20,011 nt of DNA from the IMG/VR virus record IMGVR_UViG_3300030294_000190, positions 1 to 20,011 of that record. One strand, 5' to 3'. The DNA comes from a virus. Below are positions 1-19,360 of this stretch, piece after piece; the first letter of the stretch is position 1, and each line of letters begins with the position of its first letter. The position numbers and the translations under genes are program-made. The notes under the pieces are model-generated. The model searched no databases. It was not told the origin of the DNA and saw nothing but the letters and a program-made list of their open reading frames with translations.

Positions 1-1756
1 GCTCCACAAAGTCAACCTTATAGTTGAACTGAGGGATATCACATCCACTATTGAGAATATAGTCATTACCGGCTATAGCAAGGTCTGTGACGTTGTCAAT
101 ATCTGAGAAGTCAATTTGTACCACTTTTGGATGAGGATAATTGTCTATATAAGGACTATCAATGTATCCTATAGGAGCCGTACCTATTTGAGTTGTGAGT
201 TTTAATCCATCCTTACCAACCGGTAGTATTCTGGTCACTATACCGCTAGTATCCAGGGTTTCTTCTATACCAGTTATATTCTTACGATAAGCTACTAAAA
301 CACCTCTATCAGCACCTCTATTGTTATGTAGGTTGATTGTGAAGTTATCCCTCTCAATCTCTCCTCCTATTTGCTCAATTATACCATCTGTCCCCATTAT
401 GGCTTCTACTGGGTTCTTATATTTGATTGCCCAAGTACCAAGGTTTGGAACATCAGATACCGAACGGAATCCATGAGGATAATTTGCTATATCGTGTGTA
501 TGAGTTAGCATCCAATCAAGTGCTGCTGCTCCATTCATTGATGTAAGAGTCATATCTTCTAGGAAGTAGTCAATTAAGTCATAGAATATATGTCTTGCTT
601 TGACATTAACACTACCTAGAATTCGTTTCTTGTAATATATTCTAAATAACTGATTGTCTGCTTTGATAATATGATCCTCTACAAGATTAAGATATTTGCC
701 ATAATCATCCATAGGATGTTCAAGTTCTACCTCATATGAACCATTGAGTTCTTCTATTAACCTAGCAACTGTACACTGTGACAATATACCTAATCCATTT
801 TTTGTGAAAGAGGTCTCGTTGGCATCATATAATTTAATTCGCTTAGAGAACTCTCCACCAATTTGGATAGTGTAAATATAAACACTACTTGTATTGCCTG
901 TTATAACAATAGCTTTTTTCGATATCTTCTTTTTGCTTATAGTTACTGCATTAGTAGCCGTTATAGCAAAAGTATTAGATACTTTCTTCTTAGCCGTAAT
1001 TGATACTGAACTTGCATTAGTTAGTGCAAATGACAGTGCTCTATTATGTCCTGCCACTACAACACTACTTGCATGAGTTATGGCAAATGTTTTAGATGTT
1101 TTCTTCTTAGCAGTAGTTACAATCGAACTTGCATTAGTCATAGCAAATGATCTTGATACTTTCTTCTGACCAGTTACTGCTACACTACTTACATCTTCAC
1201 TCATATTAAATGATAATACTCCACCTACTGTATATGTTATTACTAGTTTGGGAGCATTAGCTGAACCATTTTCGTATCCGTTAGCTGTTATATTACAGTT
1301 TGGAGTAGTCGCTCTTCTATTTTTATGAAGAATTAGTATTGCATTACCGCTAGCCCATGATGCTTGGTTCACAATCTCTTGAATTATACTGGTGAGTTCT
1401 GGAGAATCGTACCAAGTACCTGCTACCCATGCGCCAGGAGCATCCCAATTTACAGAGGCAGTGGTCAAAGCTTTTGCAGTAAATGTAGCATCACTTGTTG
1501 GAGACGTTGGCGCTACAACATTGTTAGCATATATAGTCGTTTGTACACTTGCAAGAGCTAATGAGGACATAGCCTTATATTGGAGGTGTGCACCTGTGAT
1601 TATTGCATTCTTAGGTATGGTTACATTTAAAAATCTAGCGAAGACATGATTATAACCACCATCATATCCTATACCTACATCAGCAATACTAAAGCCATCA
1701 GGCCATACCTGACCATCATCTGCATTTGCTGTAACTTGTCCTGTAAAAGTTGCCAT
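1..1756 (-). CDS. Tail-tip (Tal-like) protein with N-terminal beta-sandwich and repeats, partial
   Basis: The frame is open from ATG at 1756 to the left edge: 585 codons, C-terminus missing. A ribosome binding site (AAAGGTGGTGAG) lies just upstream. Residues 1-180 resemble the DNRLRE-type beta-sandwich found in secreted bacterial surface proteins, with the pattern RFLNVTIPKNA, then SVNW, then LTSIIQEIVN, WASGNAI and APKLVITY. Residues about 195-295 are 4-5 lysine-led repeats of 19-20 residues (KKKxSxxFAITxASSV). From about residue 305 it matches the N-terminal region of phage minor structural or tail-endopeptidase proteins (IKLYDANE, then VARLIEELNGSYEVELEHP, then RHIFYDLIDYFL). The position after Dit also fits Tal, which forms the tip that contacts the host. 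Tal proteins normally begin directly with that last domain, so the leading 300 residues are unusual and may be an added receptor- or glycan-binding part. Any peptidase or fibre domain lies beyond the window. Confidence 0.85.
   Translation of the reverse strand, partial: MATFTGQVTANADDGQVWPDGFSIADVGIGYDGGYNHVFARFLNVTIPKNAIITGAHLQYKAMSSLALASVQTTIYANNVVAPTSPTSDATFTAKALTTASVNWDAPGAWVAGTWYDSPELTSIIQEIVNQASWASGNAILILHKNRRATTPNCNITANGYENGSANAPKLVITYTVGGVLSFNMSEDVSSVAVTGQKKVSRSFAMTNASSIVTTAKKKTSKTFAITHASSVVVAGHNRALSFALTNASSVSITAKKKVSNTFAITATNAVTISKKKISKKAIVITGNTSSVYIYTIQIGGEFSKRIKLYDANETSFTKNGLGILSQCTVARLIEELNGSYEVELEHPMDDYGKYLNLVEDHIIKADNQLFRIYYKKRILGSVNVKARHIFYDLIDYFLEDMTLTSMNGAAALDWMLTHTHDIANYPHGFRSVSDVPNLGTWAIKYKNPVEAIMGTDGIIEQIGGEIERDNFTINLHNNRGADRGVLVAYRKNITGIEETLDTSGIVTRILPVGKDGLKLTTQIGTAPIGYIDSPYIDNYPHPKVVQIDFSDIDNVTDLAIAGNDYILNSGCDIPQFNYKVDFVE
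872..1168 (-). repeat. Tandem 57-60 bp repeats inside the tail-tip gene
   Basis: About 4.5 in-frame units encode 19-20 residues each. Each unit opens with a lysine-rich turn (KKK, or HNR in one unit), followed by a hydrophobic strand (SFAIT), an N/H-ASS turn and another strand (VVVTA). The first unit starts near residue 197 and the last ends near 295. The units sit between the beta-sandwich and the conserved tail-tip domain, where they could act as a short beta-rich linker. The number of units could change by recombination. Confidence 0.75.
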
Positions 1757-1790
1757 TGATTCTCACCACCTTTGTATATCGGAATATAAA

Positions 1791-2147
1791 TTACGTAATT
1801 GTGATTGATCCTGCGGTTATACTATATACACCCTGACCAGCAAACACTTCATCTGGAGTTACATTATACATAGCATACTGAGTTCCTGCGGTTAATGCGT
1901 CATAGAATGCTATTGCTTTAACAGTACACGCTGGCACATCAAAGTTAGGAAGAGTACCATTAAGTTGTATCTTACCTGCTCCACCAGTACCTGCGGTATC
2001 AAAAGTTACTGCTTTCCTTGCATATGCCGGTGAACCACCTGACACCTCTGTAGTTGCAGCATCGTCCGTAAACAATGCCATGTACGCGAATTTTGCTACT
2101 TTAATTGCATCTAGTGCTGCATTTAGTCCTGCTGCGTTTATTGCCAT
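1791..2147 (-). CDS. Small tail protein of unknown role
   Basis: This encodes 118 residues starting at ATG 2147, with a good AGGAGG site 8 bases upstream. The protein is Ala/Thr/Gly rich and predicted mostly beta. It has a short N-terminal helix (AINAAGLNAALDAIK) and ends in a strand-rich part (EVFAGQGVYSITAGSITIT). I recall similar small proteins beside tail-tip and fibre genes of Firmicutes phages, usually annotated as tail fibre or hypothetical. It lies between Dit and the tail-tip gene in the same operon, so a role in the distal tail is likely. The exact function is not known from sequence. Confidence 0.7.
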   Translation of the reverse strand: MAINAAGLNAALDAIKVAKFAYMALFTDDAATTEVSGGSPAYARKAVTFDTAGTGGAGKIQLNGTLPNFDVPACTVKAIAFYDALTAGTQYAMYNVTPDEVFAGQGVYSITAGSITIT

Positions 2148-2159
2148 AAGTTATGCCTC

Positions 2160-2843
2160 CTAATATCTAAAATTTGGTGTTACCTCGATTTTACTAACGG
2201 TTCCAGTCCAGGATATGTTGTTAACTCCTGGTATTAGTTCTTGGAACTCTCCAGTCATATTATTATTCATATTTCCTGCACCACTAAAAGCATCTCCAAT
2301 ATCGGAATCGAGAGTTACTGAACCGATTATACTATTTATTAGTATTGCTCGACCATTAATGGTTAACACTACAGATCCAGTACCATAAATCTTAAATATA
2401 GGTAGACTGTTGATGGTTCCTATATTGTTAATGGTTGTTGGACTTGTAGTTAGGGTTATTACATCGTTTGCATCAACATACTTATGAGGTTGACACTCCA
2501 ATAAAATTATAAAACTATGAAAGGTTCCTAATACTTTAGCAAACTCTATTTGATTCTTAATTACTGCTTTGTATACTTTATCGGGTTCATTACTAAATAT
2601 AACATCACCCTTACCTGATAACCAGTTGCATATATAATCTAATTGTGATAAGTCATTGATGGAGCATTCAACTGATTTAATTACACTTCTGTAACTACCT
2701 AAGTCATTAGTCACATATCCATCTCGTCCTTGTACTGGTACTAACTCCATGTCTCGTTCTGCACTAAAGATTGAAGGTAGTTTATTAACAGTTAGAACAC
2801 CAGTACTGTCTATGTCTTTAAATATGAAATACGGCATTCCCAT
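2160..2843 (-). CDS. Distal tail protein (Dit)
   Basis: This encodes 227 residues. Dit proteins form the ring that joins the tail tube to the tip complex. The N-terminal half has the usual pattern: a short strand, then ERDMELVPVQGRDG and a following strand with VIKSVECSI. The DYICNWLSGKGDVIFSNEPDKVYKAVI stretch (about residues 70-95) is typical of the siphovirus Dit/gp19.1 N-terminal domain. The C-terminal half (from about residue 120) is a beta-rich domain like the second galectin-type domain of larger Dits. The start ATG directly follows the tape-measure stop (TAAATG), and the last tape-measure codons supply GGGGTAGG as ribosome binding site. A second ATG two codons in is an alternative start. 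The place between tape measure and tail-tip gene is canonical. Confidence 0.88.
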   Translation of the reverse strand: MGMPYFIFKDIDSTGVLTVNKLPSIFSAERDMELVPVQGRDGYVTNDLGSYRSVIKSVECSINDLSQLDYICNWLSGKGDVIFSNEPDKVYKAVIKNQIEFAKVLGTFHSFIILLECQPHKYVDANDVITLTTSPTTINNIGTINSLPIFKIYGTGSVVLTINGRAILINSIIGSVTLDSDIGDAFSGAGNMNNNMTGEFQELIPGVNNISWTGTVSKIEVTPNFRY

Positions 2844-5800
2844 TTAGCCTACCCCCAATCCTAAATTCTTTTGTCTCATGTAGAATGATAGTTCTTCCGC
2901 TAATGCTTGTACATCCTGCCCTCTAGCATTATTAAAGTTCTCTATTACAACAGTTAAACCACCATTTGCTTGTGAACCTGGTGTTGAAGATGAATTTGTT
3001 TTCTCAGAATTTCCTCCACGGGATTTTTGGGATGCACTTATTGATCCTGCTATTGATAATCCATTGACTCCAGCCATCATACCATTCATCTGTTTACTAC
3101 CATTTTGAATGTTTGTAAGGTCAAGTACTGGAGTGATAGTTGGTTGTAGATCCATGTTACCATCAACAGCGTCAGAGATACCTGCTATGGCTCCTGATAG
3201 ACCATCTAAGGCATTAGTAGCAACTTCGGCACCTGCTTTAGCCGCTTTATCATTGTAACTGTTCAGTCCTATTACAAGACCCTCTCCAGCGTAAGCACCA
3301 ACCTGCATGAATGCTCTGGATGGAGACTTCTCAACTAAGGCTGCCTTTGCTGCTACTAATGCTGCTCTACCCATCTCTGCGGCGGCTGCTGCTGCTCCTG
3401 CTATGGCCCCTGTTATACCTCTAATAAACCCAGCAACAACATTCTTACCAGCTTCTTCAAAGTCTTTAATAGAATCAGTAACTGCTAGTTTTCCTGCACC
3501 CATCATCGCTAATACAAGATTCTGTACTGCGTCTACAAAGGCTTGTTTATTATTGTTTATGGAGTTGGTAACACCATTTAAGAATGAAATGATCAACTGA
3601 AATCCAGCCTCTACTATTTTGTTCATGTTGGCCTGTATTCCTTGTAGGAACGCAAGTACTAGATTGACACCAGCATCTACTATCTTTGGCATGTTATCAG
3701 TTAAGACCTGCACAATTTCTAGTATAATCGTGATGACTTGAAGTATGATAATCGGAGCATTAAGTATCAATGCATTTAATAATGTTGTAATCAAGTTAAG
3801 TCCAAAGTTTACGATCTCTGGTATTATAAGATAGAAGGTATCTAATATAGTTGCTACTAGTGTAAGTACTGTTAAGGCTATTGTATCAGCACTATCAGTT
3901 AATGTTTGACAGAATAACACAATACCTTCACCTAGCTTTTGGATTATTATTGGGATCATACCAACAATAGCATTAATTATTATTACGATACCTGCTGCTA
4001 TGACTACTGCTCCTGTTGACAGGGCTAAAGCCAATGCTGTTACCCCTACACTCATTAACACTAATCCTGCTCCGGCTAATGCTACACCTACTCCAATCAA
4101 GGCAATTGATCCGGCTAAGGCATATATAACTGGTACCAATGGTCCGAGTATTACGCCAGCAAAGCCTAAGACTACGAATACACCAGCTAAAGAAGTTAAT
4201 CCTTTAACTATTGCATCCCAACTCATGTTACCTAATAATATCAATACTGGTACTAGTAGATTAAATGCTATTGCTGCTACTAATAATGCGGCTGAACCAG
4301 ATAAGGTTCCTTCCATTGCTTTTAAACCTATTGCCATGAATGCTAAGGCTGTTCCCATAGCCATGAAACCCTTCATCAATTCATTTGGTGACATTGTCCC
4401 AAAGTTTCGAAGTGCCGTTGCTAATAGATTTAAAGCCACAGATATAAGTATTAATGATGCTCCTGTAGCCATAACCTGTTTTGACTCACCTGTCAATCTT
4501 GAAAATATACCTATCTCGGTAAGTAGTATACCTACACTGATCATTCCTTTGCTTATCATAGTCCAGTCCATAGTACCAAAATTTCTACACGCAGTTGCAA
4601 GTACATTCATAGCCACTGATAGAATAAGAATACCTGTAGCATTAGCTATTGCCTTCTCACTGAATGTTGTAAAGTTTAAGAATAAGGCTATTTCAGCACA
4701 TAATACACCTACAGACACAAGACCTTTAACGATCATATCCCAATCCATAGTGCCAAAGTTTCTACATGCAGTTGCTAACAAATTCATTGCTGCTGCAAAT
4801 ATAACTAAACTTCCTGCTCCTTGAATCATAGATCCTTTGTTAGCTGCTAAAGCCTTAGATGTCAATACTAATATAGTTGTTAATGCTGCTATGCTAGTTA
4901 TACCCTTTGCTACTTCATCCCATTTAAGTTTTCCAAAGTTGAGCATTGCAAATGATAGGATAAGAACCGCGGTAGATATGGTAGTCATAGCTACACCTAG
5001 TTTTATAAGTTGTCCTATACCTGCTCCGGCTGTAAGTTTACTTAATATACCCATTGCGGCAACTAATTCTATAAATACTCCTGTCATAGCCCCTAATGCT
5101 GAGGATAGTCGCTTATCATCTATCAATGACAATATCACTAAAGATGCTGCTAATATAGCAATAGCAATAGCGATGTTCATTAATGTCTTGGCTTTAAGTG
5201 AGTTCTGGAATGATTCTAAACTACCTCTAACTCCATCTAGAATACCTTTGATTCTATCTAAGAAATTAGTATCCTCTACCATATTCTTTAATGCGCCTAT
5301 AAGTTTCTTAATTCCTAATAATATACCAGCTATTAATCCACCATTGACTACATCAAATACTCTTTTGGTAGTAATTCCAGAAAAGGCTTTCATCATACCT
5401 TCTGACAATTTATCGAACGCTTTACCTACTACTCCAATAATAACTAGTACTGGTTCAAATCCGAGTTTAACTTTATCAGAGATAGTAGTAAGTCCACTGA
5501 AATCAAGTTTGCCAAATGTCGCAAAAGTTTCCTGTATTTTAGTTACTATGTTCGTAACACCACTACCTAGGAATTTAAGAGCATTAACTACTCCCGTTAC
5601 AGCATTGACGAAGAACCCAGATGTCTTTATAGATTGATCTAGTCCTACAAAGAAATTACCTATTTGTCCTGTAACTCCAAGTAAATAATCACCGACAGGA
5701 AGTAAAGCTTGTATTACTGCTCCTATAACGCCTGCAATAGCCATGAATGCCTGTTTGCCTATATCGAGAATTGCAAAGAAACCTTTAAAAGTCGCTTTAA

Positions 5801-7034
5801 GATTATTTGCTGTTTTATCACTTAGTTTTAAACTAGCCATGAAATCTCTAAATTTTACCGTTAAATCAATAAGACCTTGAGCTGTAGTCTTAGGGAATAT
5901 TTCTCTGAATGCTTGACCTATAGGTGTCATGATAGACATTAATGAATCAAATGCATTCTTAAGCCCTAATATTAAGGCATCTCTACCTCCATTGGCTTTC
6001 CAGAAAGCTAGCATCTCGTTTCTAGCCTTTGCGGCTCCACCTACAATGTTACCAAAGCCATTATTGACTTCTGTGAAGAATGCTGCTGCTTCATCTTTAT
6101 TACCTATGATATTTTCCCATGATTGAGCCCATCCAGATTGAACTGACTCTTGCATTGTGTTTATTAACTGAGAGAATGTCTTTACCTGGGTTGCTGCTTT
6201 GATTAGGTCTGGATCATTTGCAAATTTAGATAAAGTCTTTGTTAATACTTCAGATGTCAACCATCCATCTTTAAGTGTTTCTCTGAAAGGTACGCCAGCT
6301 TTAACTACTATACCCATTCCCTTTGCTGTATCCTTCAATGCATTTTGGAATAACTCTCCACCCATACCAGCATTAACTACAGAGTTCCAGTCCATAAGTT
6401 TAACCGAACCGGATGCTATAGCCTGTGAAAGCTGATACATCGCTGTAGATGCTTGTAGAGCACTTGAGCCTGAACCGGCAGCCAAGTTGGCTATACCCTT
6501 AATTGAGTCAGTAGAAGTCTTTAAATCAACTCCTGCGGCCGTAAATGTACCTATATTCTTTGCCATCTCAGCAAAGTTATATATAGTTTGATCAGAATAT
6601 GTATTTAGTTCATTCAATGCTTTATTGACATCGTCTAGGGTTGATCCCTTAGTCTTTGTATTTGTAAGGATTGTCTGAATAGCATTCATCTTGGTTTCAT
6701 ATTCTTGCAGACCTGTCATAATCGGGTCGATAGTAAGAGATTTAACTAGATTAGTACCAGCAGTTATTGCAGCGCTTGAAATGTTAAGAAGGGCGGCAAC
6801 ACCAACTGCACCAAGAAGTGTTAATTTACTATTTATACTTTCTATACCATTAGCCATATTAGCCAATGAGAATGAATTGCCCGCCTGTTGTAAGTTGTTT
6901 AAACTTGCTGCTGACTTATCTAAATTTAATCCATTCTTAAGTGCGGTTAAAGAATTAACACTTGTCTTAATCCCACTCTCAAACTGACTGTTGTTGAATT
7001 GCATGTTAACAATACGTGAATCAACACTTGGCAT
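2844..7034 (-). CDS. Tail tape measure protein
   Basis: At 1396 residues this is by far the longest gene in the window. It sets tail length, guides tail-tube assembly and is usually ejected during DNA entry. The N-terminus (about 1-110) is helical and polar, followed by a conserved tape-measure core (YETKMNAIQTILTNT, then MAKNIGTFTAAGVDL, then GGELFQNALKDTAKGMG). Residues about 600-1100 are very hydrophobic, with many possible membrane helices and a set of 59-residue repeats. The C-terminal part is Ala-rich (AGAAAAAAEMGRAAL) with KSPSRAFMQVGAYAGEGL, common near tape-measure C-termini. At the usual 0.15 nm per residue the tail would be near 200 nm, which is my estimate. The ATG overlaps the upstream stop (TAATG) and has a strong AGGAGG site. 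Confidence 0.95.
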   Translation of the reverse strand: MPSVDSRIVNMQFNNSQFESGIKTSVNSLTALKNGLNLDKSAASLNNLQQAGNSFSLANMANGIESINSKLTLLGAVGVAALLNISSAAITAGTNLVKSLTIDPIMTGLQEYETKMNAIQTILTNTKTKGSTLDDVNKALNELNTYSDQTIYNFAEMAKNIGTFTAAGVDLKTSTDSIKGIANLAAGSGSSALQASTAMYQLSQAIASGSVKLMDWNSVVNAGMGGELFQNALKDTAKGMGIVVKAGVPFRETLKDGWLTSEVLTKTLSKFANDPDLIKAATQVKTFSQLINTMQESVQSGWAQSWENIIGNKDEAAAFFTEVNNGFGNIVGGAAKARNEMLAFWKANGGRDALILGLKNAFDSLMSIMTPIGQAFREIFPKTTAQGLIDLTVKFRDFMASLKLSDKTANNLKATFKGFFAILDIGKQAFMAIAGVIGAVIQALLPVGDYLLGVTGQIGNFFVGLDQSIKTSGFFVNAVTGVVNALKFLGSGVTNIVTKIQETFATFGKLDFSGLTTISDKVKLGFEPVLVIIGVVGKAFDKLSEGMMKAFSGITTKRVFDVVNGGLIAGILLGIKKLIGALKNMVEDTNFLDRIKGILDGVRGSLESFQNSLKAKTLMNIAIAIAILAASLVILSLIDDKRLSSALGAMTGVFIELVAAMGILSKLTAGAGIGQLIKLGVAMTTISTAVLILSFAMLNFGKLKWDEVAKGITSIAALTTILVLTSKALAANKGSMIQGAGSLVIFAAAMNLLATACRNFGTMDWDMIVKGLVSVGVLCAEIALFLNFTTFSEKAIANATGILILSVAMNVLATACRNFGTMDWTMISKGMISVGILLTEIGIFSRLTGESKQVMATGASLILISVALNLLATALRNFGTMSPNELMKGFMAMGTALAFMAIGLKAMEGTLSGSAALLVAAIAFNLLVPVLILLGNMSWDAIVKGLTSLAGVFVVLGFAGVILGPLVPVIYALAGSIALIGVGVALAGAGLVLMSVGVTALALALSTGAVVIAAGIVIIINAIVGMIPIIIQKLGEGIVLFCQTLTDSADTIALTVLTLVATILDTFYLIIPEIVNFGLNLITTLLNALILNAPIIILQVITIILEIVQVLTDNMPKIVDAGVNLVLAFLQGIQANMNKIVEAGFQLIISFLNGVTNSINNNKQAFVDAVQNLVLAMMGAGKLAVTDSIKDFEEAGKNVVAGFIRGITGAIAGAAAAAAEMGRAALVAAKAALVEKSPSRAFMQVGAYAGEGLVIGLNSYNDKAAKAGAEVATNALDGLSGAIAGISDAVDGNMDLQPTITPVLDLTNIQNGSKQMNGMMAGVNGLSIAGSISASQKSRGGNSEKTNSSSTPGSQANGGLTVVIENFNNARGQDVQALAEELSFYMRQKNLGLGVG
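4216..4946 (-). repeat. Tandem 59-residue repeats in the tape measure
   Basis: Five units are recognisable by a recurring NFG(T/K)(M/L)xW-like core. The cores are MLNFGKLKW, CRNFGTMDW, CRNFGTMDW, LRNFGTM and LILLGNMSW. Spacing is 60, 59, 59 and about 56 residues. Each core is preceded by a hydrophobic stretch such as VAMNVLATA and followed by xxIxKGxxSVG. The two middle units are also clearly similar at DNA level (4558-4598 and 4738-4775). The units probably arose by internal duplication. Confidence 0.8.
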
Positions 7035-14524: not shown

Positions 14525-15049
14525 TTATTGTTTAGATGCTTGTACAGTTGATACTATTGCATGTCCTACGCCATAATAAGTTCCAACGGATGCTAATACA
14601 ACGCCCGCTGTTAACTGACCAGACTTCATCATAGCAAGTCCACCTACTTGAGATGCTACTACAATTCCCGCATCTTTTAATAGATTCTGACTTAATGTCT
14701 TACCATTTTTTAATGTTTTGGGTGCTACTATATTTTTACTGGCAGCACTTTTATATTTAGATTTTATTTGTGCTTGTTCATTGTCCAAGGCTTTACTTCT
14801 TTTGATTACTGCATTTACATCATTACCTTTTCCAGACTTTTGTAGGTCAGCCATGTCTTTCTGAAACTTAGCATTAGACTTTTTAAGTTCATCTCTTTTA
14901 CTGGCCGAAGGTTTAGATGTGGCTGCTCCACCAGTTCTATGCCCCCACTTCATGCCTAATTTACCAAAATGTTCGAGTGAATCTTCAGAGTTGGTACCTT
15001 TACCCCAAGACATTCCCATTGCACCGTAATGTTTTAATTCATTATCCAT
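14525..15049 (-). CDS. Protein with two GMxWG tags and hydrophobic C-terminus
   Basis: This encodes 174 residues. The first 38 residues hold two copies of a short motif: LKHYGAMGMSWGKG (5-18) and LEHFGKLGMKWGHR (25-38). A basic, helical and possibly coiled-coil part (about 50-105) follows. Then comes a largely hydrophobic region (about 125-168, with GIVVASQVGGLAMM and GVVLASVGTYYGVG) that could form one or two membrane helices. The N-terminus is identical in protein sequence to that of the next gene upstream for 36 residues. Function is unknown. I infer a virion protein brought into or onto the head by its tags, with a possible membrane role on infection. The start is supported by AAAAGGAGG. 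Confidence 0.7.
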   Translation of the reverse strand: MDNELKHYGAMGMSWGKGTNSEDSLEHFGKLGMKWGHRTGGAATSKPSASKRDELKKSNAKFQKDMADLQKSGKGNDVNAVIKRSKALDNEQAQIKSKYKSAASKNIVAPKTLKNGKTLSQNLLKDAGIVVASQVGGLAMMKSGQLTAGVVLASVGTYYGVGHAIVSTVQASKQ

Positions 15050-15064: not shown

Positions 15065-15604
15065 TTAACCAAAATTCTTCTTCCATGTCTGAGCAGTTTT
15101 ATAGGTATTTACTGCTGTTTTTGCCGACTTTAACGCTGAACTAACAGCGTGGTCGATTGCTGGTTTGTTTTGAGTGTATAGAATATAACCAGCTGCTAAT
15201 GAGGTTGTTCCCGTTAGGGTCTTAGCTACAATTTTAGCACTTCTACTTGCCTGGTCTTTAGTTGCTCTACCTCTACTGTTAGATATAGCTTTATTATTTA
15301 TTTTAGAGTAGTTAATTTCAGATAGGGCTTTATCGTATGCTGCTTTATACTGAGGATTTTTCATTTTTTCATCAATTTCTTTTTTAACTAATCTTCTCTG
15401 TATACCAGCACCTTTTCCATATGCTTGACGGGCCACTTCGTGCTTAGTTGCATCTTTCTTGGCTGTTTTATTTAATTTATTTTCTGCATGTCGTTGTCCC
15501 CACTTCATGCCTAACTTACCAAAATGCTCTAGTGAATCTTCAGAGTTGGTACCTTTACCCCAAGACATTCCCATTGCACCGTAATGTTTTAATTCATTAT
15601 CCAT
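15065..15604 (-). CDS. Protein with two GMxWG tags, paralogous N-terminus
   Basis: This encodes 179 residues. It starts with the same 36 residues as its downstream neighbour, again with tags at 5-18 (GMSWGKG) and 25-38 (LEHFGKLGMKWGQR). After the tags the two proteins do not align. Here residues 40-120 are highly basic (KLNKTAKKDATKHEVARQ and RRLVKKEIDEKMKN), then a short hydrophobic stretch (about 125-143, with TGTTSLAAGYILY), then a basic end. The basic part might bind DNA. Function is unknown. The gene starts 11 bases after the TerL stop, and its AGGAGG site overlaps that stop, so it is likely co-translated with TerL. Confidence 0.7.
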   Translation of the reverse strand: MDNELKHYGAMGMSWGKGTNSEDSLEHFGKLGMKWGQRHAENKLNKTAKKDATKHEVARQAYGKGAGIQRRLVKKEIDEKMKNPQYKAAYDKALSEINYSKINNKAISNSRGRATKDQASRSAKIVAKTLTGTTSLAAGYILYTQNKPAIDHAVSSALKSAKTAVNTYKTAQTWKKNFG

Positions 15605-17368: not shown

Positions 17369-17746
17369 CTACTTTCCAGGTATGGCTTTATTTAAAAGTA
17401 TATCTAATCCTTTAGACATGCCCTTAGCAGCTAAATTGGACACGACCTGTTTAGAAGAATTAGAAAGAACATCATTCACATACTTTCTACCAGCAGAAAC
17501 ATCCTGTTTGCTTAGATCTTTATATGATCTCTCTAACTGTAGTCTATTATTAAGAGTTTGTAGTTCAGAATTAGACATCTCATAGATCTTCTTCTTCTTT
17601 AATTTCTGTTTCTGAGCATAATCCTCGCTAACCTGTTTTGGTTTATGTATGCTAGATGTTATACTAGACATACTAGTTTTAGCATTTCTATGACCCCAAT
17701 GCATTCCTAATTTACCGTAATGCTCTAATGATTCATTATCTGTCAT
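17369..17746 (-). CDS. Small protein with one GMxWG tag
   Basis: This encodes 125 residues. The tag LEHYGKLGMHWGHR is at residues 7-20. A Ser/Thr-rich linker and a strongly basic stretch (QKQKLKKKKIY) follow. Next is MSNSELQTLNNRLQLERSYKDL (about 57-78), a helix pattern I have seen after this tag in other phage proteins. The C-terminus (NLAAKGMSKGLDILLNKAI) is weakly hydrophobic. The ATG shares a base with the upstream stop (TAATG) and has GGAGG before it. Function is unknown. The shared tag and the place just before TerL suggest a head-associated role. Confidence 0.7.
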   Translation of the reverse strand: MTDNESLEHYGKLGMHWGHRNAKTSMSSITSSIHKPKQVSEDYAQKQKLKKKKIYEMSNSELQTLNNRLQLERSYKDLSKQDVSAGRKYVNDVLSNSSKQVVSNLAAKGMSKGLDILLNKAIPGK

Positions 17747-18131: not shown

Positions 18132-18542
18132 TTACAACCAAGGACATGTGTCATTACGTCGTCTTTCTATTGGTGCCTGCGGGAGTAATGATGCATCTCC
18201 ATAATGTATAGCATTATGAGTTTGAAGTATTGTACTAATAAGGAACTCAGGATCATAGATTACATCCCTATCAAGTTCAACATCTTCTATTGTTATTTGG
18301 TTCATGTGATGTACTATTATAGAACTATAAATTTCATGACCTTCAACTCCTAAGTCACAACCATTATCTCTAATAATAACATCATCACGAGTCTTTCTCC
18401 ATCGTTTAGATCTGTATAAGATTTGATTTAGATAACGATCAAACCCAAATGTAGTATCTCCAACTGAACCTTTGATTCGTAGATAATCATAACGATCTTC
18501 GAAACTTATTAAATTTTTTAGTTCAGAATATGACCTAATCAT
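18132..18542 (-). CDS. HNH nuclease-like packaging-module protein
   Basis: This encodes 136 residues. RSKRWRKTRDDVIIRDNGCD (about 44-63), VHHMNQITIEDV (78-89) and QTHNAIHYGD (107-116) form an HNH-like set with candidate metal and catalytic residues H78/H79, N81, H109 and H113. The usual zinc-binding CxxC pairs are absent. Very similar patterns are common in Firmicutes phages near the terminase genes. HNH proteins there are known to help terminase cut cos sites in some phages. The start ATG overlaps the upstream stop as ATGA. I see no good ribosome binding site, so translation probably depends on coupling. Whether it is an active nuclease cannot be told from sequence. Confidence 0.75.
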   Translation of the reverse strand: MIRSYSELKNLISFEDRYDYLRIKGSVGDTTFGFDRYLNQILYRSKRWRKTRDDVIIRDNGCDLGVEGHEIYSSIIVHHMNQITIEDVELDRDVIYDPEFLISTILQTHNAIHYGDASLLPQAPIERRRNDTCPWL

Positions 18543-19360
18543 AACATTATTACATTTATGATCTTTTCTAAAGCACGTACTTTATGTACTGTAGATGATA
18601 CAATATCCTCTTTTGGATTTAATAAAATAAGCGGTAATTTACCTAAAAACCCGGAATCATTCTCATCAACCACTGCGTTATAGCCAGTAGATCTAACATG
18701 GTCAAAGAATTTCGTAACCAGTGGATTATCTTTGTTATTAAGATCAGTCATAAAGTTTTTATATAACCCATCATCAACTTCTTTTACATTGTGGGTTTTC
18801 ATATACATCTCAGCCATTATCTTTTTAGATGGAACTTTTATTTCATTCTTACTCTTCATAACATGTTCGTATACACTCTTACCTTCGTCTGGTATGAACC
18901 CTTGTTTTTTCCATGATTCAAAATATCCAGGCATGGTTTCTTTGTAAATTCTTGCATCTTTCTTTACGTGGGATACATATATTTTACCATTCGTCGAATA
19001 ATCTTCAAAAGATTTGGTACTCATCCTATAGAATTTAGAACCTTTAGGAATCGTTGTATCTTTTGTTGATAATGAATTTAGATCTACTATTTTTCCAAAT
19101 CGAAAAGTCTGTACTCCTCCTATTGGTAGATTATTCTTTTTGTAAGCATATACACCACCAGCAACGGCTAAGGTTACACCAACTGCTGCTGCTCCAATTA
19201 GGATGTTCCTTTTAATTCGTTTCTTTCGTTCATCTTCCGTTTCAGTCTTTTTTGAATTACTTGTTATGGTTGTTGATCCTTTTCGATGCCCACATTTCAT
19301 TCCCATTACACCGTGATGTGTGAGTTCTTGTAGTGGAGGTTTCTCTATACTAATCATCAT
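18539..19360 (-). CDS. Tagged membrane-anchored protein, possible ADP-ribosyltransferase-like domain
   Basis: This encodes 273 residues. A variant tag (LTHHGVMGMKCGHR, residues 13-26) has Cys in place of the usual Trp. A charged linker leads to a clear membrane helix at about 52-73 (NILIGAAAVGVTLAVAGGVY) flanked by Lys/Arg. The rest is a soluble domain of about 190 residues. It includes IPKGSKFYRMSTKSF (104-118), GKIYVS (125-130), GYNAVVDENDSG (226-237) and KLPLILLNP. The order R, then YVS, then an acidic pair resembles the R-S-E layout of ADP-ribosyltransferases, but the last glutamate motif is not convincing, so this is a guess. The ATG at 19360 overlaps the upstream gene by 11 bases and has a GGAGGT site. 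Confidence 0.65.
   Translation of the reverse strand: MMISIEKPPLQELTHHGVMGMKCGHRKGSTTITSNSKKTETEDERKKRIKRNILIGAAAVGVTLAVAGGVYAYKKNNLPIGGVQTFRFGKIVDLNSLSTKDTTIPKGSKFYRMSTKSFEDYSTNGKIYVSHVKKDARIYKETMPGYFESWKKQGFIPDEGKSVYEHVMKSKNEIKVPSKKIMAEMYMKTHNVKEVDDGLYKNFMTDLNNKDNPLVTKFFDHVRSTGYNAVVDENDSGFLGKLPLILLNPKEDIVSSTVHKVRALEKIINVIML

Follow-up and report, generated by a model that had tools for sequence, protein, structure and literature searches.

A siphovirus-like tail hub protein with a predicted CBM96-like domain and repeat linker before the hub

One stretch of 20,011 bases from a single IMG/VR virus record (here called the window) carries at its left end a minus-strand gene in which a predicted beta-sandwich and a run of short repeats stand in front of what appears to be the tail hub (Tal) of a siphovirus-like phage. 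This arrangement raises the questions of whether the fusion is real, what the added part resembles, where it may have come from and what it might do at the tip of a phage tail. The features concerned are as follows.

Complement 1-1756, minus strand: fused Tal gene, starting at 1756, running off base 1 and open at the window edge
1..850, minus strand: predicted gp27-like tail hub (Tal), residues 303-585 and on beyond the window edge (PF06605, phrog_1067, fold match)
851..1222, minus strand: six repeat units of about 20 residues, putative linker or stalk, residues 179-302 (autocorrelation; two short strands each)
1223..1756, minus strand: CBM96/DNRLRE-like beta-sandwich, residues 1-178, putative binding module (AF2, VIA, profile relatives)
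1762..1770, minus strand: GGTGGTGAG, likely ribosome-binding site of the fused gene (direct reading)
1791..2147, minus strand: 118-residue Gp80-like protein, probable cassette partner (PF23140, phrog_240)
2160..2843, minus strand: distal tail protein (Dit), upstream flank of the cassette (phrog_33, E 3.4e-33)
2844..7034, minus strand: probable tape measure protein, judged by size, position and repetitive hydrophobic sequence

The tail hub and its reading frame

In the part of the protein encoded by the window, hub homology begins at residue 304, with phrog_1067 matching residues 304-585 (E 1.4e-76) and PF06605 (Prophage_tail) matching residues 392-584 (E 3.4e-13, 50.3 bits). The whole fused protein, read from locus L002, has 933 residues encoded by a gene of 2,802 bases, and there the PF06605 match extends over residues 392-648 at 93 bits against a curated cut-off of 31.3; phrog_13289 and other phrogs match the fused protein from residue 304 or 307. 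A structure was predicted for residues 1-720 (mean pLDDT 73), in which the ten-residue blocks of the hub (residues 311-640) have pLDDT values from 64 to 97, most of them close to 90; an AF2 hub alignment with the domain rows, at only 10-15% identity, was discarded. Structural comparison with VIA, in which matches below Z 8 were treated with caution, aligned model residues 304-642 with residues 1-327 of the monocin hub 9j1k (Z 22.2), matched model residue 306 to residue 2 in the 80alpha hub 6v8i (Z 19.5) and gave Z 12.6 against p2 2wzp. Model residue 304 lines up with the first residues of the solved hubs 9j1k, 6v8i and 3gs9, and the counterpart of the hub is found at or close to the gene start in Listeria phage PSA, two Clostridioides phages, Lactobacillus PLE2, Latilactobacillus TMW 1.706 P1 and one Oscillospirales phage. 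Since the hub aligns with the first residues of other hubs, the preceding residues, some 302 in number, are best regarded as an addition. This agrees with a preliminary description of the locus, which had the tail-tip domain beginning near residue 305, behind an N-terminal add-on; phrog_1067 and the structural alignment put the start at about 303. The hub gene lies just downstream of Dit, with only the 118-residue gene between them, and the hub is followed by its own C-terminal extension. On profile and model evidence the gene is a predicted Tal of a siphovirus-like phage.

Three further contigs contain the entire fused gene; their DNA is identical to the window across the shared 1,756 bases and, among the three, across the full 2,802 bases. 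A fourth contig (L005), which is without the first 198 residues, differs at 13 of 2,208 bases. The fusion reads as one uninterrupted frame both in identical relatives and in those at 77% and 67%, being open in the 77% relatives L018 and L020 and in the sequenced part of L199. The start codon is preceded by the likely ribosome-binding site, and no in-frame ATG, GTG or TTG occurs between codons 235 and 324, so that the hub would be unable to start alone near residue 303. It might be supposed that two genes have been joined by a sequencing error or a missed stop, and other phages do often have the domain as a gene by itself (16 of 82 ORFs are nearly domain-only). The identical frame in three more contigs, the open frame in L018, L020 and L199 and the lack of any alternative hub start codon leave this idea with almost no credibility, and in practice several contigs refute it. 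Positions 872-1756, singled out in the preliminary description, correspond to residues 1-295 of the minus-strand gene; close relatives carry the whole fusion or nothing, and none was found with residues 1-300 as a separate gene.

The N-terminal domain and the repeat linker

AF2 modelling with a 66-row alignment predicted residues 1-178 to be a beta-sandwich at a pLDDT of about 93. The best structural match to this model was 8wab (VIA Z 15.3, rmsd 3.2, 160 residues aligned, 12% identity), the chondroitin-sulfate-binding CBM of a chondroitinase, which is an enzyme module and is likened to the window domain by fold only. The CBM96 structure 7vbo (TM6-N4) also matched the predicted model (VIA Z 12.3, rmsd 3.5, 154 residues aligned; Foldseek E 5.6e-4), and both matches stood well above the remaining CBMs on the match list. 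BMP9/TGF-beta prodomains likewise match the sandwich, at VIA Z of about 9-11 (BMP9 Z 11). Growth-factor prodomains are not known to be sugar-binding, and since the fold is common to these prodomains it does not by itself give the function. BMP9 is also given as a DALI neighbour of CBM96, which has about 30% identity to DNRLRE domains, in the CBM96 account (PMC9971899).

Searched alone, residues 1-302 had no credible match in Pfam, PHROGs or NCBIfam or, by sequence, in the PDB; tblastn against phage records with E up to 10 matched nothing, and neither did a DNA search with window positions 1-2900. The domain profile gave one weak PDB match, to GDF2 (BMP9) at E 0.77, whose prodomain came up again in the fold search. 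The DNRLRE model NF033679 matched neither the window part (E up to 10) nor the domain (E up to 1) and was matched by four of 11 aligned domain relatives (best E 1.1e-6); the literal DNRLRE motif is absent from residues 1-302 on direct reading. For the basic alginate-binding residues of CBM96 (in TM6-N4 Lys10, 22, 25, 27 and 31, Arg36 and Tyr159) there is no obvious counterpart in residues 1-45 of the window protein, which, read from the sequence and not by structural position, hold no lysine and one arginine (R41). The sandwich, which shares its predicted fold with 7vbo, thus appears to be a distant relative of the DNRLRE/CBM96 group and not a passing member of it. Residues 1-180 had earlier been called a DNRLRE-like beta-sandwich, and a domain search of residues 1-300 had been proposed; the predicted model bears out the sandwich, with a CBM96-like fold, the libraries gave nothing credible, and the kinship with DNRLRE is distant.

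Behind the sandwich, residues 179-297 are repetitive, with the best autocorrelation at lags of 39, 20 and 19 and none of 2000 shuffles reaching as high. By eye there are six units, four of them led by lysine, each predicted as two short strands at a pLDDT of about 62-72, which is modest and comes from a monomer prediction. The original count of four to five lysine-led repeats of about 20 residues was sound as to the repeats and their lysine lead in four, and low as to the number of units. Counting the units between isolates, as had been suggested, gave five by eye in each of L196 and L199 against the six of the window. Lysine-led repeats are also present in L039, with a period of 18. Pairwise BLAST of the window linker against that of L027 found nothing, and the two are alike only in period and lysine lead. 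A resemblance of linker residues 199-296 to gp38 of PP01 (VIA Z 6.7) was set aside, being below Z 8 and in a region of modest confidence. A triple-beta-spiral is one form that the stalk could conceivably have.

The repeat linkers that follow the same domain elsewhere differ, being poly-Ser, Ser-Pro or short tandem units (L045 5974-7479, L055 5872-7839, L061 5929-8163, L073 6001-8004 and L111 6001-8334). Two loci (L027 6846-9434 and L179 5893-8481) encode 862-residue proteins with three copies of the domain, lysine-led repeats and a C-terminal part that is amidase-like by eye.

Distribution and gene neighbourhood of the addition

Comparison of N-termini in related phages, also proposed earlier, was made on 80 hub relatives fetched with the hub profile. 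The addition was found in eight of these loci, in three lineages (L193 holds only its end); in the 72 without it the hub starts at or before residue 62, and in 71 of these at or before residue 43. On a tree of 54 hubs, L199 with the addition and L200 without it are sisters (support 100/99), and the pair lies inside a clade with L192 and L196 (support 100/100). The addition needs two state changes on this tree, which may represent either a gain and then a loss or two gains. The stop of Dit and the start of the hub are 1,309 bases apart in L192 and 1,249 in L196, a gap that holds the 118-residue gene and the addition; the L199 contig ends before residue 1, with the upstream gene outside it. In L200 Dit and Tal overlap at an intact junction, the C-terminus resembles that of the window protein and no gene like that for the 118-residue protein (gp118) was found. 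Since L200 is without both gp118 and the addition while its Dit-Tal junction is intact, the block appears to behave as a removable cassette.

gp118 matches PF23140 (Gp80), the family of the podophage GP4 fibre I protein gp80, with an E-value of 1.7e-10 and 41.7 bits against a curated cut-off of 27, and phrog_240 with an E-value of 1.2e-15. Unlike gp80 of podophage GP4, it lies between Dit and Tal of a siphovirus-like genome. At L002 5610-6534 the G+C content is 43% in gp118 and 40% in the sandwich, above the 36% of the hub and the 34% of Dit and the linker. PF23140 itself matched four of 65 ORFs upstream of domain ORFs, the 65 comprising 63 of 75 upstream ORFs and two second-upstream ORFs (12 were removed by hand, among them near-copies and ORFs that carry the domain themselves). 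An iterated gp118 model matched 20 of the 976 small ORFs at domain loci (90-210 residues, six frames), and 15 of the 20 lie no more than 900 bases upstream of a domain ORF, as do 90 of the 976; 40 control seeds gave 35 matches, one of them upstream. Counting pairs, 15/92 against 5/884 gives a Fisher p of 1.4e-12, a value weakened by possible drift of the model, by counting the near-copies L018/L019 and L040/L100 apart and by the possibility that both kinds of gene just share a tail-module context. The association is suggestive only. In L065 a gp118-like gene stands directly before the domain and repeats follow it, which is also the order of the window; directly upstream of the domain ORF in L029 or L082 no such gene was found. 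Given the upstream enrichment and the joint absence in L200, a two-gene cassette of gp118 and the addition is plausible rather than shown.

The domain itself was searched for in IMG/VR with a profile of 11 domains, and of 249 stretches that matched the pattern at least 177 contained relatives. Together with loci obtained before, the 80 best of these gave 82 distinct ORFs, of which 22 have the domain N-terminal, 16 nearly alone, 13 internal, nine in several copies and eight C-terminal, the other 14 being cut by contig ends. In three relatives outside the window clade it lies N-terminal to a tail protein, namely to a PF06605 part in L029 (2.8e-7, just under the cut-off), to a phrog_1887 part in L065 (6.3e-27) and to a phrog_1885 part in L082 (2.4e-7); it lies inside a split Prophage_tail domain in L092 and at residues 116-304 of a tail-module protein without a library match in L030. 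Judged by these matches, the domain is found in front of other tail hubs as well as within them, in genes of fibre-like type, and as a gene by itself. It is missing from the families of both Pfam and PHROGs, and at least 177 IMG/VR stretches contain it.

Origin and putative function

The preliminary description had proposed that the domain was captured from a bacterial surface protein. Relatives are indeed encoded by 149 of 167 pattern matches in cellular (bacterial and archaeal) genomes, and the best 80 cellular loci gave 91 ORFs, mostly for long proteins, many with signal-like N-termini. Some of these proteins, from gammaproteobacterial and related sources (L118, L119, L122, L127, L129, L148, L156, L160, L165 and L174), have N-termini that by eye resemble the pilus adhesin PilY1. 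The best 80 include one phage-like locus, L179, from a GTDB bin with the label Candidatus Daviesbacteria. A quick tree was made of 229 rows, restricted to domains of at least 150 residues; on it, however, the rows nearest to the window domain are viral (L019 at 62%, L039 at 53%, then L042). The viral label requires 11 changes on this tree against a shuffled mean of 71, a comparison to be read with 102 of 226 inner branches open, many deep branches weak and a cellular set found with a profile of viral domains, which may favour viral clustering. With phage proteins as its closest kin, the domain lends no support to direct capture from a bacterium, which seems improbable. For the last step of transfer, the deep origin aside, a phage source is favoured by the sequence comparisons, and the block would most likely have been acquired from a fibre gene of another phage.

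The reading that we prefer, at a probability of roughly 0.62, is that the gene encodes a Tal with an N-terminal accessory adhesin, in which the CBM-like sandwich on its repeat stalk would be a putative glycan-binding module. Since tail hubs are trimers, each tail would carry three modules, suspended from the hub by stalks whose length depends on the number of repeats. The modules would bind a host-surface glycan weakly and in parallel and would keep the tail tip near the cell during engagement of the main receptor-binding proteins. A role as accessory glycan adhesin is likely because of other CBMs on siphophage tails: CBMs are established on Dit, the tail tube, the neck and Tal (PMC7291167, PMC9437275) and some bind the host as GFP fusions (PMC6669499). 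The fold held in common with growth-factor prodomains and the lack of an evident CBM96 basic patch in residues 1-45 count against this reading. The module and the 118-residue Gp80-like gene would form a removable block between Dit and Tal. More tentatively, a transferable two-gene cassette, composed of a Gp80-like anchor and a CBM96-like head with repeat stalk, may move between unrelated phages and may here have been placed in frame at the Dit-Tal junction as a length-adjustable stalked glycan adhesin; heads fused to or inserted in hubs elsewhere would then be independent uses.

The extension might instead be a structural part, binding Dit or gp118 and bracing the baseplate with no glycan contact. 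The presence of the extension together with gp118, the lack of both in L200 and the naming of the gp118 family after a podophage fibre protein would all suit such a brace. L029 and L082, however, have the domain on a tail protein, and in neither was a gp118-like gene found immediately before it; in many phages it is alone or in other kinds of gene, so that a purely structural part seems rather unlikely. A glycan-binding module, for its part, could be directed at the environment, binding mucus or extracellular matrix and keeping phages near surfaces, as kinship of fold with modules for chondroitin sulfate and alginate might suggest; placement on the tail hub and not on the capsid favours contact with the host, and we consider environmental binding very improbable. 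For the accessory adhesin that we prefer, L199 (with the addition) and L200 (without it) offer a natural pair for asking what a tail-hub CBM does.

The evolved Tal and Dit proteins of lactococcal and streptococcal siphophages also carry a CBM on a conserved tail-tip protein (PMC7291167, PMC9437275, PMC9692632), and the evolved Tal, as here, has a gp27-like hub with a separate C-terminal extension. The CBMs of those proteins are described as belonging to the gp27-like domain, to galectin loops of Dit or to extensions at the C-terminus, whereas the predicted CBM96-like fold described here comes before hub residue 1 with a repeat stalk and a Gp80-like gene; the window Tal thus bears a module of CBM fold, placed outside the gp27-like domain. 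L092, unlike the window, has a domain relative within the hub. The earlier remark that tail-tip extensions are normally C-terminal needs some qualification, N-terminal hub additions being known in lambda gpJ and T5 pb3, where the hub fold starts far from residue 1, at an estimated ~185 and ~386 respectively (PMC7291167). These N-terminal parts, compared by text only, are not known to have been reported as CBM-like. One phage paper has a DNRLRE protein in its gene table (PMC12512217), and no report of a CBM96/DNRLRE-like domain on phage hubs was found in the open-access literature. Relative to known CBM decorations, the place before hub residue 1, the CBM96/DNRLRE-like fold and the repeat stalk appear to be new.

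Other observations were made in the window and its relatives. Phages that are nearly identical differ in a long gene downstream of Tal (L003 10318-12597 and L002 10509-12869 against L004 8422-10819 and L005 3916-6313), where a segment of about 450 bases, LamG-like by eye, has been swapped; identity is 99.9% over the 1,573 bases preceding the segment and about 95-96% past it. This looks like an exchange of a receptor-binding domain. The hubs of two Christensenellales (Heliusvirales) phages (L006 5037-5900 and L007 5112-5978) have about 100 extra residues inside the hub, SH3-like by eye and at the same alignment place in both. Four minus-strand ORFs in the ORF list of the window (14525-15049, 15065-15604, 17369-17746 and 18539-19360) start with versions of the motif L-x-H-[YFH]-G-x-x-G-M-x-[WC]-G, and in two of the four the first 36 residues are almost identical.
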